Below are positions 10,586-35,504 of a stretch of 35,614 bases of DNA, in pieces. Source of the stretch: Spirochaetaceae bacterium (lineage in GTDB: Bacteria; Spirochaetota; Spirochaetia; WRBN01); the NCBI GenBank assembly GCA_009784515.1, contig WRBN01000008.1, forward strand, positions 1 to 35,614, in the 5' to 3' direction. The position numbers were made by a program, and so were the translations under genes. Numbering within the stretch: position 1 is the stretch's first letter; every line of letters starts with the position of its first letter. The notes beneath the pieces were generated by a model. It was not told the DNA's origin. It worked only from the letters and a program-made list of their open reading frames with translations, and ran no database searches.

Positions 10586-10614
10586 TTGACAAAGTAAACC
10601 GGCCGTGTTATAGT
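10586..10614 (+). promoter_or_regulatory. Promoter of the peptide mRNA, copy 1
   Basis: TTGACA (10586-10591), a 17-nt spacer and TATAGT (10609-10614). Start is predicted near 10620, right at the AAAATGGCT segment that can pair with the mRNA 3' part. Confidence 0.85.
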
Positions 10615-10619
10615 AGTTA

Positions 10620-10697
10620 AAAATGGCTTAAAGCCAATGGTACAGGAACCACCTCTACACCTTAAAGATATTGATAAAATATTAATAAGGAGGAGAG
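10620..10697 (+). promoter_or_regulatory. Structured leader with sequestered ribosome binding site, copy 1
   Basis: TGGCT/AGCCA near the 5' end can form a small local hairpin. Further on, CTCTACACCTT (10653-10663) faces AAGGAGGAGAG (10687-10697): nine of eleven positions pair, and an inner ATATT/AATAT stem (10668-10672 with 10678-10682) closes the loop. This hides the strong Shine-Dalgarno. Separately, AAAATGGCT (10620-10628) is complementary to AGCCATTTT (10770-10778) inside the coding region. 79 of 83 leader bases match copy 2 by hand count. Confidence 0.75.
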
Positions 10698-10701
10698 TAA
10701 A

Positions 10702-10788
10702 ATGAAAGATACAAAAACTTTCATTAAAAGAGTGCTGCTAGCACTCAGGGTTACATACCAATTGCTAGCAGCCATTTTACCTCATTAG
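10702..10788 (+). CDS. 28-aa basic/hydrophobic peptide, candidate type I toxin, copy 1
   Basis: A 28-codon ORF, too short for ordinary gene calling, with AGGAGG 8 nt before its ATG. The peptide has a polar, Lys-rich start (MKDTKTFIKR), then VLLALRVTYQLLAAILPH, a run long enough to make a short membrane-seeking helix. Copy 2 encodes a homologue with about 19 of 27 positions identical, including F, I, VLLAL, V, Y and the ending LLAAILPH, while its N-terminus differs. That pattern fits protein-level selection. The coding sequence also contains a 10-bp inverted repeat (10734-10743 and 10763-10772) conserved in both copies, so it is constrained as RNA as well. Membrane toxicity is inferred from likeness to type I toxins, not seen. 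A leader peptide is the alternative. Confidence 0.75.
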   Translation: MKDTKTFIKRVLLALRVTYQLLAAILPH

Positions 10789-10810
10789 TAAATTAATTTA
10801 CTAATGAGAC

Positions 10811-10874
10811 CAAAAAAAACCGTAAGAGGTTTTCTCCTGCCCCCTGTTCCCCAATAGGGGCAAGGTTTTTTAAT
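10811..10874 (-). ncRNA. Predicted antisense RNA of about 64 nt, copy 1
   Basis: Read leftward, transcription from the 10881-10909 promoter should begin near 10874. The RNA first contains the complement of the mRNA terminator hairpin, then a second hairpin made by AAAACC and GGTTTT with a 6-nt loop, running straight into more T (down to about 10812), which is an intrinsic terminator. It is fully complementary to the 3' untranslated region of the peptide mRNA and stops before the coding region. Ends are predicted, not measured. Confidence 0.7.
10838..10871 (+). terminator. Terminator of the peptide mRNA, copy 1
   Basis: TGCCCC (10838-10843) pairs with GGGGCA (10857-10862). AAGG and a run of six T (10866-10871) follow. 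The equivalent hairpin in copy 2 has a different but also paired sequence. Confidence 0.75.
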
Positions 10875-10880
10875 AGCTAA

Positions 10881-10909
10881 AGTATACGCAATTTTGTCTT
10901 ATTTGTCAA
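10881..10909 (-). promoter_or_regulatory. Antisense promoter, copy 1
   Basis: Leftward TTGACA (10904-10909), exactly 17 nt, TATACT (10881-10886). This is one of the best matches to the sigma-70 consensus in the window. It points back into the module with no gene behind it, and it is conserved in copy 2 together with the flanking TTA. Confidence 0.85.
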
Positions 10910-10993
10910 CTAAAATTTTAGTAAAAAGCGTCGCTCGCCTAAATTAAGGCAGCGTAACTTTATGATTAACCTAAAACTTGCCGCCGCCCGCTC

Positions 10994-11022
10994 TTGACAT
11001 TCCCTGCCGCCTGTCTTAAAAT
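10994..11022 (+). promoter_or_regulatory. Promoter of the nucleotidyltransferase gene
   Basis: TTGACA (10994-10999), 17 nt, TAAAAT (11017-11022). The ATG at 11033 is 10 nt after the -10, leaving at most about 4 nt of leader and no ribosome binding site. Confidence 0.7.
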
Positions 11023-28828: not shown

Positions 28829-29092
28829 ATGTACTTTCGCTGGAATGGGGAGAAGGAAAAAACATTAAATAATACCCGTGAAATATCTTTTGAAGAAATA
28901 GTAAAATCTATTAATAACGGCGGGTTAATTACTACCGAATTAAATAAATTATATAGTAATCAAATAATTTTTGTTGTGCGCATTAAAGGGTATGTTTATG
29001 CTGTACCGGCTGTTCCCGAAGGGGATAATTGTTATTTTTTAAAAACGATTTATCCTTCGCGAAAACTTAATAAAAAATATAAGGATACTTAA
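28829..29092 (+). CDS. BrnT-like toxin of a type II toxin-antitoxin pair
   Basis: An 87-aa protein with the BrnT-like opening MYFRWNGEKEKTLNNTREISFEEI (an aromatic-Trp pair, then a basic helix), NQIIFVVRIKGYVYAVPAVPE and the end FLKTIYPSRKLNKKYK. BrnT toxins are RNase-like and block translation. The fit to classical BrnT is partial, and I rely on the pattern and the RHH partner. The toxin gene comes first, as in brnTA. The promoter leaves no leader, whereas the antitoxin gene 2 bp downstream has its own ribosome binding site, which could tilt expression toward the antitoxin. Confidence 0.68.
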   Translation: MYFRWNGEKEKTLNNTREISFEEIVKSINNGGLITTELNKLYSNQIIFVVRIKGYVYAVPAVPEGDNCYFLKTIYPSRKLNKKYKDT

Positions 29093-29094
29093 CC

Positions 29095-29349
29095 ATGAAT
29101 GATGAATATTTAGATAAACGTTACGATGAAACCCCGCTAGATGATGAAGAGCGTGAGTTAGCAGCTATGATTGAGCGCGGCGAGCTTGACCCGCGTGACG
29201 ATAGGTCAATTATTGTAAAAGTAAAGGTAGATGATTTAAATAAAATTAAAGATAAAGCCGCACAGTTAGATATTTCTTATCTAACACTGATTAGGAGCTT
29301 ACTTCATCGTTACGCTACCGAGCAAATTAAGATGGATAATTATTTTTAA
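29095..29349 (+). CDS. CopG/BrnA-like ribbon-helix-helix antitoxin
   Basis: An 84-aa protein with an acidic N-terminal half (toxin-neutralising arm, residues 1-38) and then RSIIVKVKVDDLNKIKDKAAQLDISYLTLIRSLLH, read here as a ribbon-helix-helix DNA-binding unit. Such antitoxins repress their own operon. AAGGAT lies about 9 nt before the ATG, and it starts 2 bp after the toxin stop. Its stop TAA is immediately followed, with no spacer, by the reverse-strand stop of alaS. Confidence 0.72.
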   Translation: MNDEYLDKRYDETPLDDEERELAAMIERGELDPRDDRSIIVKVKVDDLNKIKDKAAQLDISYLTLIRSLLHRYATEQIKMDNYF

Positions 29350-32325: not shown

Positions 32326-33543
32326 CTACAAAAGCCCCTCCCGCTCCAACGCCGCTGTATATTCCTCCTTAGTAAGTAATCCCTCTTTAAATAACGCCGA
32401 TAAACGGTTTTGTTTGCTTACCTTAACGGCCTCTTCTTCTTTAATGTCTACAAGTTTTAAGTTACTAAAGGTATAACTATAATCGGGTACAAAGCCGCAT
32501 ACTTTGCGTAGCGCAATGGGCAGCAGCTCGTTTAAAACGCGGCGGGCGCGCGGCCTTATCACACTTTCGATGGTAGCGTAGTAGTTATCCATATCTTCCT
32601 CGCCGCTGCTAAAGCCGGAGGCCGACAGGCCGAACAATTTGGTTAAAGGCATACGCAACGCCGAAGCCACCGTAATGCGGTTTTCGCGCAAAATATCGGG
32701 CAGGCCGCTAAAGTTAATTTGTTTTTGCTCGTAACTATCGTTACTGCCCAGCACCAGCAGGCTGCGATAATCTTTTAGGCGGGCGATGGTCTCGGTAAGG
32801 TTGCTAAGCCGTTTGGTGCCGCTATCGGTAAGCAACTGCTCGCTTAGGCCGTCAATCTTAAGTATATCAATTTTGGCCTCGTCCAGTAGCTCGTAAATAA
32901 CGCGCTGGTTTTTTTGCCAGTTACGCACTGGCAATAAAGTGCGCTCGAGGTCGCTTAAGCCCCAGCCCTTTAACTCTTTATCGTATAAGGCCGGAGCGTC
33001 GGTACCTTTTAACAAGATAAGACGGCTGGGGTCAACCGTTATGCCGTTATAAACAAATTCACTGTTTTCATCATAATAATGCGCTTTGTCGCCTAATTGC
33101 CATCTATCCAATGCCCTAAAGCCTAAAATGGTATCTTTATTAACTTTATCGGCAAAAAACGGTTTATTAAGCGGCTCATCGTTGATGATAAGAATAGCCC
33201 CGCCGCCGTACAAAGCCGCCGCCAGCATCGCATTTTTGAGGGCTTGATAAGGGCTTTGCAGCCGCAGCCGTTTACTATTAGCGGTGTTCAGTACAGCCAT
33301 CTCATTTAAATAATGAGACACATCGTTAAGTTGTTCATTAGTTAGCTCATCGCAACGCAGAGTAAGGCCGCCGCGTAAAGCGTCGTCCACCGGCACGGTG
33401 ATGGCCGTTTGAATTTCGCTTTGTTTAGCGAAGGCACTGCTTAACAGCCGGCGCGATAAAGTGATGAGGCCGCCGTTCATAAATTCTTCGTTATCTAATT
33501 TTTTTATACCAATTAATTCTTTTAAACCGTTTTCGTGTAACAA
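32326..33543 (-). CDS. Phage portal protein (DUF1073-like)
   Basis: A 405-aa protein with the portal pattern of the DUF1073 group. The opening is LLSSAFAKQSEIQTAITVPVDDALRGGLTL, AALYGGGAILIINDEPL is the conserved GGG-hhh block, and FGLSASGFSSGEEDMDNYYATIESVIRPR is close to the usual ...G.SGE.....Y...I stretch. The portal forms the dodecameric DNA gate of the capsid and docks the terminase. The start is TTG with GGAG at 9 nt. It follows terL after a hairpin-repeat gap. The anti-CBASS Acb1 domain found fused to some relatives is not visible here. Confidence 0.78.
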   Translation of the reverse strand: MLHENGLKELIGIKKLDNEEFMNGGLITLSRRLLSSAFAKQSEIQTAITVPVDDALRGGLTLRCDELTNEQLNDVSHYLNEMAVLNTANSKRLRLQSPYQALKNAMLAAALYGGGAILIINDEPLNKPFFADKVNKDTILGFRALDRWQLGDKAHYYDENSEFVYNGITVDPSRLILLKGTDAPALYDKELKGWGLSDLERTLLPVRNWQKNQRVIYELLDEAKIDILKIDGLSEQLLTDSGTKRLSNLTETIARLKDYRSLLVLGSNDSYEQKQINFSGLPDILRENRITVASALRMPLTKLFGLSASGFSSGEEDMDNYYATIESVIRPRARRVLNELLPIALRKVCGFVPDYSYTFSNLKLVDIKEEEAVKVSKQNRLSALFKEGLLTKEEYTAALEREGLL

Positions 33544-33567
33544 AATAATCTTCTCCTTTTCATTAAG

Positions 33568-33606
33568 AATTAATAACTAAGATTTCTTAATTTTTAGTTA
33601 TTAATT
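33568..33606. repeat. AT-rich inverted repeat between terL and portal
   Basis: AATTAATAACTAA (33568-33580) and TTAGTTATTAATT (33594-33606) are perfect 13-bp complements with a 13-nt loop. It shares ATTAAGAATTAATAA with the rpmA-obgE repeat. It also overlaps the terL stop region. Confidence 0.6.
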
Positions 33607-34727
33607 TATATTACTTCCAATAACGATACCTTTTTGCCTATATAAGCCGACAGCGCATAACGCATAGCATCGATGGTGTGGTTGTTGTTGTCTTGCGGTT
33701 GATTAAGGACTTGCCCGGTATATTTATCCACCTTATATTTATAATTATTTAGTTCGTATAAAGTGTTGGGGCAGTTCTCGCTTACCACAATTTGTTCAAA
33801 ACCCTTTAAATAATAAATTCCCGCAGCTACGCTGCCTTTCCCCTTAGGGGCATCACGGATACAAAAGCCCGCCGCCCGAAAATGAGTGGCTAAATCGGGC
33901 CGGCTGTTATCGGCATAAATGAGGGCGTCAAGCGGCAGCTTTGCTTTAAAGATGGCTACAACTTCTTCAATCGTTTTTTTATGTAAGTACAGCTCTTCCC
34001 AGATGTACAACTTTTTGTCCTCGATAGTGCAGCCTACAAGGGCCGTTGGGTCGTTGGCAAAACCCCAATCAAGGCCGTACATTAAAACTTTTCCCGGCTC
34101 CGGATTTAATTTCCCCTCCGTAAAATGTTTATAAAAAACCAATTCTTCCCGGTTTTCAATAATTTCTCCCAGCCAAATTGCCCGGTAGCGCTCATAATTA
34201 TGCTCTTTTTCGTAAAGGGCTTCGTTTTTGAGTACCTCCGGCAAAAAGGGGTTTTGGTCGTAATTAATGTATAACAGCAGGCAATCGGGCCGGTCGTTTT
34301 TAACAAAACGTTGGTAAACCGGGCTGTCGGCGCGTTTAGGGTTAAAACTAATCCAAATTTCGCTGTCTTTAGCCCGGATACTGGGGATTAACACCTGCCA
34401 AGCCGCTTCTTCCACGTCTTCGGCCTCCTCGATAAAGCAGTAATCTATCTCCTCTAAACTGCGTAGATTGCTGCTTTGTTTACCGTTTAGCCCCATAAAC
34501 AGTAGCTCGCTGCCGTTAACACATTCTATTTTGTTGCTGCGTAAGGTAAAATAATTTTCGAGACCAAATTCGCTAATTAAATTACTGTAAATTTGATAAA
34601 CGCTCTCTTTAAGTGAGCGTTGTACCGCCCGCAAATTGAGTATGCGTTTTTTGCCGCTTAAAGCTAAAATTAACAGCATACGTACCATACTTTGGCTTTT
34701 GCCGCCGCCCCGCCCGCCGTAAGCCAC
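33606..34727 (-). CDS. Phage terminase large subunit (TerL), 5' end uncertain
   Basis: TerL packages phage DNA with an ATPase and a nuclease. Walker A YGGRGGGKSQSMVRMLL, Walker B DYCFIEEAEDVEEAAW, the motif ISFNPKRADSPVYQRF and the nuclease acidic cluster YGLDWGFANDPTALV, then NHTIDAMRYAL near the end, resemble the Sf6-type terminase. With the GTG start the Walker A is at residues 4-11, about 22 residues short of the relatives. In frame further upstream, QIAQPFIPFFSEKRRYKV matches their N-terminus but has no ATG/GTG/TTG start after an in-frame TGA (34803-34805). A rare start, readthrough or decay could explain this. Confidence 0.83.
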   Translation of the reverse strand: MAYGGRGGGKSQSMVRMLLILALSGKKRILNLRAVQRSLKESVYQIYSNLISEFGLENYFTLRSNKIECVNGSELLFMGLNGKQSSNLRSLEEIDYCFIEEAEDVEEAAWQVLIPSIRAKDSEIWISFNPKRADSPVYQRFVKNDRPDCLLLYINYDQNPFLPEVLKNEALYEKEHNYERYRAIWLGEIIENREELVFYKHFTEGKLNPEPGKVLMYGLDWGFANDPTALVGCTIEDKKLYIWEELYLHKKTIEEVVAIFKAKLPLDALIYADNSRPDLATHFRAAGFCIRDAPKGKGSVAAGIYYLKGFEQIVVSENCPNTLYELNNYKYKVDKYTGQVLNQPQDNNNHTIDAMRYALSAYIGKKVSLLEVI

Positions 34728-35203: not shown

Positions 35204-35232
35204 TTGACAAAGCCGGCTGCCTATATTATAGT
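35204..35232 (+). promoter_or_regulatory. Promoter of the peptide mRNA, copy 2
   Basis: TTGACA (35204-35209), 17 nt, TATAGT (35227-35232). Start is predicted at about 35238, at the AAAATGGCT segment. Confidence 0.85.
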
Positions 35233-35237
35233 GGTTA

Positions 35238-35315
35238 AAAATGGCTTAAAGCCAATGGTATAGGAACCACCTCTGCACCTTAAAGATATTGATATAATAT
35301 TAATAAGGAGGAGAG
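35238..35315 (+). promoter_or_regulatory. Structured leader with sequestered ribosome binding site, copy 2
   Basis: CTCTGCACCTT (35271-35281) faces AAGGAGGAGAG (35305-35315) with nine of eleven pairs, as in copy 1. AAAATGGCT (35238-35246) is complementary to AGCCATTTT (35386-35394). Only four of 83 leader positions differ from copy 1, none disrupting a pair. Confidence 0.75.
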
Positions 35316-35320
35316 AAGCA

Positions 35321-35404
35321 ATGAAAAAGCAAAATTTCATTGTAAAAGTGCTGCTAGCACTTAAGGTTTGCTACCACTTGCTAGCAGCCATTTTGCCACA
35401 TTAG
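35321..35404 (+). CDS. 27-aa basic/hydrophobic peptide, candidate type I toxin, copy 2
   Basis: A 27-codon homologue of the peptide at 10702-10788, with AGGAGG 9 nt before its ATG. It reads MKKQNFIVKVLLALKV and then CYHLLAAILPH, with one residue fewer near the N-terminus, and the hydrophobic core and C-terminal LLAAILPH unchanged. The internal repeat (35350-35359 with 35379-35388) keeps its 19-nt loop. A second hairpin encloses the stop codon (TGCCAC/GTGGCA, 35394-35409), where copy 1 has a 28-bp perfect palindrome. The function is inferred, as for copy 1. Confidence 0.75.
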   Translation: MKKQNFIVKVLLALKVCYHLLAAILPH

Positions 35405-35412
35405 TGGCACAG

Positions 35413-35469
35413 TTTAAAAAGTTTGAATACTTTTTCCCGCCCCTGTTTCGCCGCAGGGGCGGCTTTTAT
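35413..35469 (-). ncRNA. Predicted antisense RNA of about 57 nt, copy 2
   Basis: Leftward start near 35469 from the promoter at 35476-35504. The first hairpin is the complement of the mRNA terminator. The second, AAAAAGT/ACTTTTT (35416-35435), ends in T and should terminate. Copy 1 uses AAAACC/GGTTTT at this place, so the hairpin is kept while its bases change. The RNA covers only the 3' untranslated region of the peptide mRNA. Confidence 0.7.
35437..35467 (+). terminator. Terminator of the peptide mRNA, copy 2
   Basis: CCGCCCCTG (35437-35445) and CAGGGGCGG (35454-35462) make a perfect 9-bp stem with an 8-nt loop, followed by CTTTT. Confidence 0.85.
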
Positions 35470-35475
35470 TAGTAA

Positions 35476-35504
35476 AGTATAACGGGTTTTTAGTTATTTG
35501 TCAA
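35476..35504 (-). promoter_or_regulatory. Antisense promoter, copy 2
   Basis: Leftward TTGACA (35499-35504), exactly 17 nt, TATACT (35476-35481), the same boxes and spacing as copy 1 though the spacer differs. Confidence 0.85.

Follow-up and report, generated by a model that had tools for sequence, protein, structure and literature searches.

The window analysed here, a stretch of 35,614 nucleotides, is contig C8 of a draft spirochaete genome (G000; 1.83 Mb, 129 contigs). At positions 10586-10910, between genes for an outer-membrane beta-barrel protein (left) and a nucleotidyltransferase (right), lies a compact unit with a sigma-70-type promoter at either end, the two pointing towards each other (Table 1). 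The promoter, structured leader, 28-codon gene, ribosome-binding site, terminator and oppositely directed promoter of the original prediction are all found in the places assigned to them and, as was also proposed, both neighbouring genes have promoters of their own, that of the nucleotidyltransferase gene at 10994-11022. The 700 nt around the unit hold 6 promoter-like sites, compared with a mean of 2.4 in shuffled sequences. The plus-strand RNA is predicted to fold with -87.7 kcal/mol (z = -8.95); within its leader the motif ACCUCU, directly 5' of the CCUUA..UAAGG stem, is able to pair with GGAGGAGAG. On the minus strand the hairpin inside the coding sequence (the CDS hairpin) is followed by ACUCUUUUA, the presumed antitoxin terminator. 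The predicted antisense RNA covers the 3' UTR, as first envisaged, but its scope is wider, in that about two thirds of the ORF would also be covered, up to the CDS hairpin.

Table 1. Sequence features of the three module copies in the window (window positions; transcripts and functions are predictions)
Feature	Position	Strand	Basis or remark
Copy 1, putative toxin promoter, TTGACA-17-TATAGT	10586-10614	+	-35 box is the start of the conserved unit
Copy 1, leader hairpin 1, GGCUUAAAGCC	10625-10635	+	folding
Copy 1, leader stem CCUUA..UAAGG, including first bases of the Shine-Dalgarno sequence	10660-10690	+	folding
Copy 1, Shine-Dalgarno GGAGG, inside AAGGAGGAGAG (10688-10698)	10690-10694	+	8 nt 5' of the ATG at 10702
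Copy 1, start-codon hairpin, arms AAUGAAAG / CUUUCAUU	10701-10725	+	folding, compensatory changes
Copy 1, candidate toxin ORF, 28 aa, MKDTKTFIKRVLLALRVTYQLLAAILPH	10702-10788	+	ATG at 10702
Copy 1, CDS hairpin, arms GCTGCTAGCA / TGCTAGCAGC, 10 bp, 19-nt loop	10734-10772	+	folding
Copy 1, 12-bp hairpin across the stop codon	10781-10808	+	folding; self-complement match in DNA search
Copy 1, putative intrinsic terminator of toxin mRNA, GC-rich (10841-10860) with T-run	10841-10870	+	sequence
Copy 1, putative antitoxin (antisense) promoter, TTGACA-17-TATACT	10909-10881	-	sequence; conserved across copies
Copy 1, predicted antisense antitoxin RNA, about 145-150 nt	10722-10874	-	both ends inferred
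Copy 2, putative toxin promoter	35204-35232	+	sequence
Copy 2, candidate toxin ORF, MKKQNFIVKVLLALKVCYHLLAAILPH	35321-35404	+	sequence, peptide comparison
Copy 2, putative antisense promoter, TTGACA-17-TATACT	35476-35504	-	sequence
Copy 3, promoter and start of the leader, truncated where the contig ends	35574-35614	+	complete on contig C123 (MKKQFSWVFIKSALLALEVTYRLLTAILPH)

Two copies had been predicted, and both are real; the second, at 35204-35504, is 83-84% identical to the first over 131 + 75 nt and has a similarly folded plus-strand RNA (-88.6 kcal/mol, z = -7.55). The total, however, is about 20 in the genome, including a third copy that stands in tandem with the second and continues on contig C123, the 5' end of which is the last 121 bases of the window. 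Phage portal and large terminase genes (32326-34727) mark a piece of prophage directly upstream of copies 2 and 3. Elsewhere in the window, a 300-nt direct repeat (932-1231 and 1599-1898, 79% alike) runs across a pair of neighbouring paralogues (638-1198 and 1293-1865), each of which is preceded by an inverted-repeat motif, and two adjacent ORFs of 87 and 84 aa at 28829-29349, the second weakly matching CopG-type antitoxins, are possibly a type II pair.

The inventory of the genome was made by DNA search, covariance models for groups A (R1) and B (R2) and a peptide profile, all of which agree. About 18 of the copies are intact or near-intact and fall into three sequence groups; the others are decayed. 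Group A has seven intact members (two on C8, two on C20 and one each on C123, C84 and C14) as well as a frameshifted copy on C103, a copy on C91 with an internal deletion and a leader insertion, and, on C14, a remnant; group B consists of ten copies (C2, C14, C85, C35, C82 and C41, with two each on C19 and C13), and group C is a single locus on C17. The copies are 70-87% alike, divergence between the groups is deep, some copies are in tandem, and the adjacent genes vary from copy to copy. The decayed toxin genes on C103 and C91 have both kept their antisense promoters. Inspection led to rejection of a further covariance match, C55:12546 (R2, E 0.008). FlaA, a protein regarded as spirochaete-specific, was found in G000 and in several relatives, whereas all 14 controls lacked it; its gene lies on C14 between two module copies, so the modules do not stem from a contaminating contig.

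Two of these loci have features of their own. The group B copy on C41 (L067:420-600), adjoining an elongation-factor-G-like gene, has an intact peptide and a degenerate forward promoter and has lost its 3' part together with the antisense promoter, making it a candidate for a natural orphan toxin. The leader of the C91 copy (L018:1405-1535) contains an element that resembles a MITE, has a long perfect inverted repeat (TAATCCCCTTCGCCGGC...) and is set between two ACCTTAAAG repeats that probably represent a target-site duplication; partial copies of the element occur near L016:1180-1255 and in L021.

When the peptide profile was run against 395 genomes of the class, the family was found in G000 and in one other, G001, and was absent from the remaining 393. 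G001 belongs to a different genus and is the one other genome sampled from the same family, so that the peptide is conserved, as had been asked of it, both in about 20 paralogues and in a second genus. Its three loci encode MYTLLQYLLRGLLVLTFLLVVTQPLY, a GTG-started copy ending in LLLRGLLLLTFLLVVTQPLH, and MMYHFGKIVMIMAILFFFIQKLY, and all three have the TTGACA-17-TATACT antisense promoter. The GTG-started copy is on a circular 28.3-kb replicon (contig C3; 127-nt terminal overlap), between genes for a ParE toxin and a phage-type integrase. The same contig (L118, L119) is dense in defence genes, with MmeI-type restriction, three GmrSD, Abi_2, ParE, resolvase, integrase and a ParA-like ATPase. Five further matches to the peptide profile (E 0.002-0.02) lay in long ORFs or without the module layout (G120 was checked) and were set aside.

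The homologues in the other genus were found by amino-acid profile alone. The covariance-model search that had been suggested recovers the group A and B copies in their own genome only, R2 over the 395 genomes of the class and R1 over 60 relatives, in which nothing convincing was seen beyond the genome itself (G041, E 0.072); a pattern search of the 60 relatives likewise returned only the window's genome, and copy 1 had no match in plasmid and phage records. A hairpin pattern gave one match in viral contigs and five in genome contigs that were judged to be chance, the two inspected (a viral and a Ghiorsea contig) both being without the module layout.

The peptides are of 23-31 aa, basic in the N-terminal half, with one hydrophobic stretch, and across the groups align as M..xKxLLRALLxxxxLLVxxQ[KRP]LY or ...ILPH. 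The ORF is open in all but decayed copies, with a consensus Shine-Dalgarno sequence 6-9 nt from the start. Values of dN/dS of 0.27-0.46 in five sets indicate purifying selection, partly confounded by constraint on RNA structure; the conserved C terminus (Q[KRP]LY or ILPH) is outside the arms of the CDS hairpin.

Folding of the mRNA is stronger than that of shuffled sequences in 22 of 22 copies (z -4.0 to -9.1), and the ribosome-binding site is in RNA stems that covary among copies. The AUG in group A is itself in a helix of 6-10 bp, where in 8 of 9 copies its partner is an in-frame CAU, while the flanking pairs change in a compensatory manner; the helices differ in sequence, e.g. AAUGAAAG/CUUUCAUU, CAAUGG/CCAUUG and GUUUAUGG/CCAUAAAC. 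The AUG is paired with a probability of at least 0.98 in 8 of the 9 group A copies; among 31 ordinary genes of the window, 3 reach at least 0.9. The CDS hairpin, which has 8-12 bp and a loop of 17-21 nt, behaves similarly, both arms having changed together between copies, with a perfect partner for each of the variants GCTGCTAGCA, GCTACTAGCA, GCTGTTAGCA, ACTACGAGCA, CTAATACGAGCA and CTGCTTGT. Covariation of the helices was counted copy by copy; alifold statistics on A3 understate it, because MAFFT misaligns the start-codon helix. Most group A 3' UTRs (window 10832-10840) also contain UUCUCCUG, complementary to the Shine-Dalgarno region and absent from copy 2 and the C123 copy, which may possibly allow long-distance 3'-5' pairing as in aapA.

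Of the 22 tabulated copies, 21 have the antisense promoter, the exception being the truncated C41 copy; it scores at least 10/12 in 20 of them and 9/12 in one, whereas a score of 10/12 is reached by 7.8%, and one of 11/12 by 2.1%, of random 220-nt stretches. Its spacer is 17 nt in 20 of the 21, and in all 21 it is 3' of the stop codon, at a distance near-constant within each group: 71-92 nt in A, 55-58 nt in B and 49-51 nt in two G001 copies (values for C84 and C103 left out). The conserved block ends at both -35 boxes, identity falling from 0.69 and 0.74 inside to background beyond (0.61 and 0.59; shuffled 0.58 and 0.57).

In all G000 copies except that on C91, the CDS hairpin is followed on the minus strand by 4-7 U within 8 nt (AUUUUUUU in four copies of group B), the run being supplied by the lysine codons that precede the hairpin. 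Read in the antisense direction the hairpin thus resembles an intrinsic terminator, at which in G000 an antisense RNA would stop after about 113-148 nt, so that the 3' end of the antitoxin seems to be encoded within the toxin ORF. No terminator-like hairpin with a U-run was seen within the ORF of the G001 copies G1a and G1b, and the in-ORF terminator appears therefore to be a trait of the window's genus and not of the family.

The peptide was predicted to belong to no known family and this holds, in that Rfam, Pfam, NCBIfam, PHROGs, PADLOC and PDB sequences gave no match of note. Hok/Sok, par/Fst, TisB and Ldr have curated protein or RNA models, none of which matched in Pfam/NCBIfam or Rfam. 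Searches of Pfam, NCBIfam, PHROGs and PDB sequences likewise gave no homology to TxpA, BsrG or BsrE/BsrH, although peptides so short can escape detection. Type I systems are stated to have been known only from Proteobacteria, Firmicutes and Tenericutes, together with one new cyanobacterial case, a distribution for which search bias has been blamed (PMC12390103, 2025). No spirochaete type I case was found in a search of open-licence papers and hence no claim of priority is made.

The closest parallels in layout are with txpA/RatA, bsrG/SR4 and bsrE/SR5 of Bacillus subtilis, which share a small basic or hydrophobic toxin and a separate convergent promoter; as in these modules, the predicted antisense RNA here overlaps the toxin mRNA in its 3' part. 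The Shine-Dalgarno sequence of bsrG is within a stem, and the Bacillus modules are known to act by pairing between stem-loops and decay through RNase III (PMC6562991, PMC8309996). The spirochaete family differs in its number (about 20 copies in one 1.8-Mb genome), its AUG hairpin and, throughout the groups of the window's genome, the location of the presumed antitoxin terminator inside the toxin ORF. The likeness to aapA/isoA that was originally drawn is apt for the general plan, but not for the antisense geometry, which is of the 3'-overlapping txpA/RatA, bsrG/SR4 type. The Helicobacter pylori system encodes a cationic membrane peptide of about 30 aa in several copies per genome, from an mRNA whose local hairpins hide the Shine-Dalgarno sequence and block premature translation (PMC6733600). 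A short cationic peptide, multiple copies and a folded, self-inhibiting mRNA would thus be common to both. By contrast, the 80-nt IsoA3 starts from a promoter inside the toxin ORF (PMC6733600), whereas here the promoter is 3' of the stop codon and its RNA would cover the 3' half; family and structure searches gave no sequence relation. The ibs/Sib loci of Escherichia coli are also multi-copy, with very short hydrophobic peptides and a cis-antisense RNA (PMC8309996), but IbsC has 19 aa, compared with 23-31 aa and a basic N-terminal half here, and homology is not established. The msoT1/MsoA1 locus of Microcystis aeruginosa is comparable, by description and not by sequence, as a type I locus outside the classical phyla, in this case cyanobacterial; 6 of 10 candidates in that study had antisense RNAs over the CDS and 3' UTR (PMC12390103).

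The copies thus combine a short hydrophobic ORF with a Shine-Dalgarno sequence, an opposite-strand promoter and a hidden ribosome-binding site. The type I-like plan of the original prediction is borne out at the level of sequence by selection on the peptide, the antisense promoter and the covarying stems, and the family very probably represents a new, lineage-specific, multi-copy type I toxin-antitoxin family in spirochaetes. In such a system a constitutive promoter would give a toxin mRNA of about 240 nt, folded into a succession of local hairpins in which the Shine-Dalgarno sequence and, in group A, the AUG are hidden; because both are in stems, the full-length mRNA is likely to be poorly translated. 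The convergent promoter, 50-90 nt 3' of the stop codon, would give an antisense RNA of 105-150 nt, complementary to the 3' UTR and to the greater part of the ORF and ending in G000 at the hairpin and U-run inside the ORF. Mirror-image hairpins of the two RNAs would probably kiss, leading to a duplex and RNase III-like decay of the toxin mRNA. Since the predicted antisense RNA ends short of the Shine-Dalgarno sequence and AUG, repression would presumably work by duplex formation and decay, as with RatA, and not by covering of the start site. If the antisense supply dropped, e.g. under stress or on loss of the replicon, the mRNA would persist and open or be processed, and the resulting 23-31-aa basic single-helix peptide might damage or depolarise the membrane. 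We infer both transcripts from their consensus promoters, and toxicity, duplex decay and trigger are likewise postulated. To judge by their prophage and plasmid neighbours, some copies may have arrived as addiction or defence modules. Counting against a type I assignment are the intact ORF without an antisense promoter on C41, the lack of an in-ORF terminator in G1a and G1b, and the few forward promoters that are weak or undetected (C13b, C19a, C91 and G1a).

Single-helix peptides of such size also act as regulators, and the purifying selection would suit any functional peptide, so a non-toxic small membrane protein, with a regulatory or stress role and expression tuned by the antisense RNA, has to be weighed; it is unlikely, given that what is seen here, about 20 divergent paralogues, partly in tandem, partly decayed and partly in plasmid and prophage contexts, is typical of toxin modules, and that a housekeeping regulator has no need of double sequestration of its start site. 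The very strong folding (z to -9.1), with codon conservation due in part to the hairpin arms, could be taken to mean that the functional entity is a structured sRNA with its antisense partner and that the ORF is incidental. It is, however, difficult to reconcile this with dN/dS below 1 in 5 of 5 groups, a C terminus conserved outside the hairpin arms, an ORF kept open except in decayed copies behind a consensus Shine-Dalgarno sequence, and homology to another genus visible by amino-acid profile alone, and such an RNA pair is very improbable.

A dispersed, multi-copy unit that runs from promoter to promoter, with inverted TTGACA/TGTCAA ends, also has something of a non-autonomous MITE-like mobile repeat carrying promoters by chance. 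Coding selection and covarying internal helices speak against this, as do the absence of terminal inverted repeats or duplicated target sites beyond the -35 boxes and a pattern of 70-87% identity with deep between-group divergence that is unlike recent transposition; the genuine MITE of this genome, in the C91 leader, looks different, and a mobile repeat is correspondingly a slight prospect. The original prediction considered a leader peptide or attenuator unlikely, and a short ORF followed by a terminator hairpin 5' of a gene does have that appearance; but the neighbours are different at every locus, which excludes a fixed leader, the downstream gene of copy 1 has its own promoter, copies follow one another in tandem, and the conserved unit stops at the antisense -35 box, so that control of a downstream gene is scarcely credible.

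The type I assignment can be taken further. It is somewhat favoured, on the present sequences, that in about 20 type I modules one stretch of DNA specifies a membrane peptide, translation-blocking mRNA helices and an antitoxin terminator on the opposite strand. The peptide motif (KK-ILRAL...LLV, VLLAL...LLA) would then be largely dictated by RNA structure, the in-frame CAU partner in the AUG helix supplying part of an isoleucine codon, and families would diverge by moving peptide and RNA together.

A well-supported spirochaete family that reaches about 20 copies per genome would extend the known range of type I systems and would offer a covariance-based route to such loci without prior homologues. 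The large copy number makes antitoxin specificity versus cross-talk testable, and the series of paralogues would present an ORF shaped jointly by peptide function, the folding of its own mRNA and the terminator of its antisense RNA.
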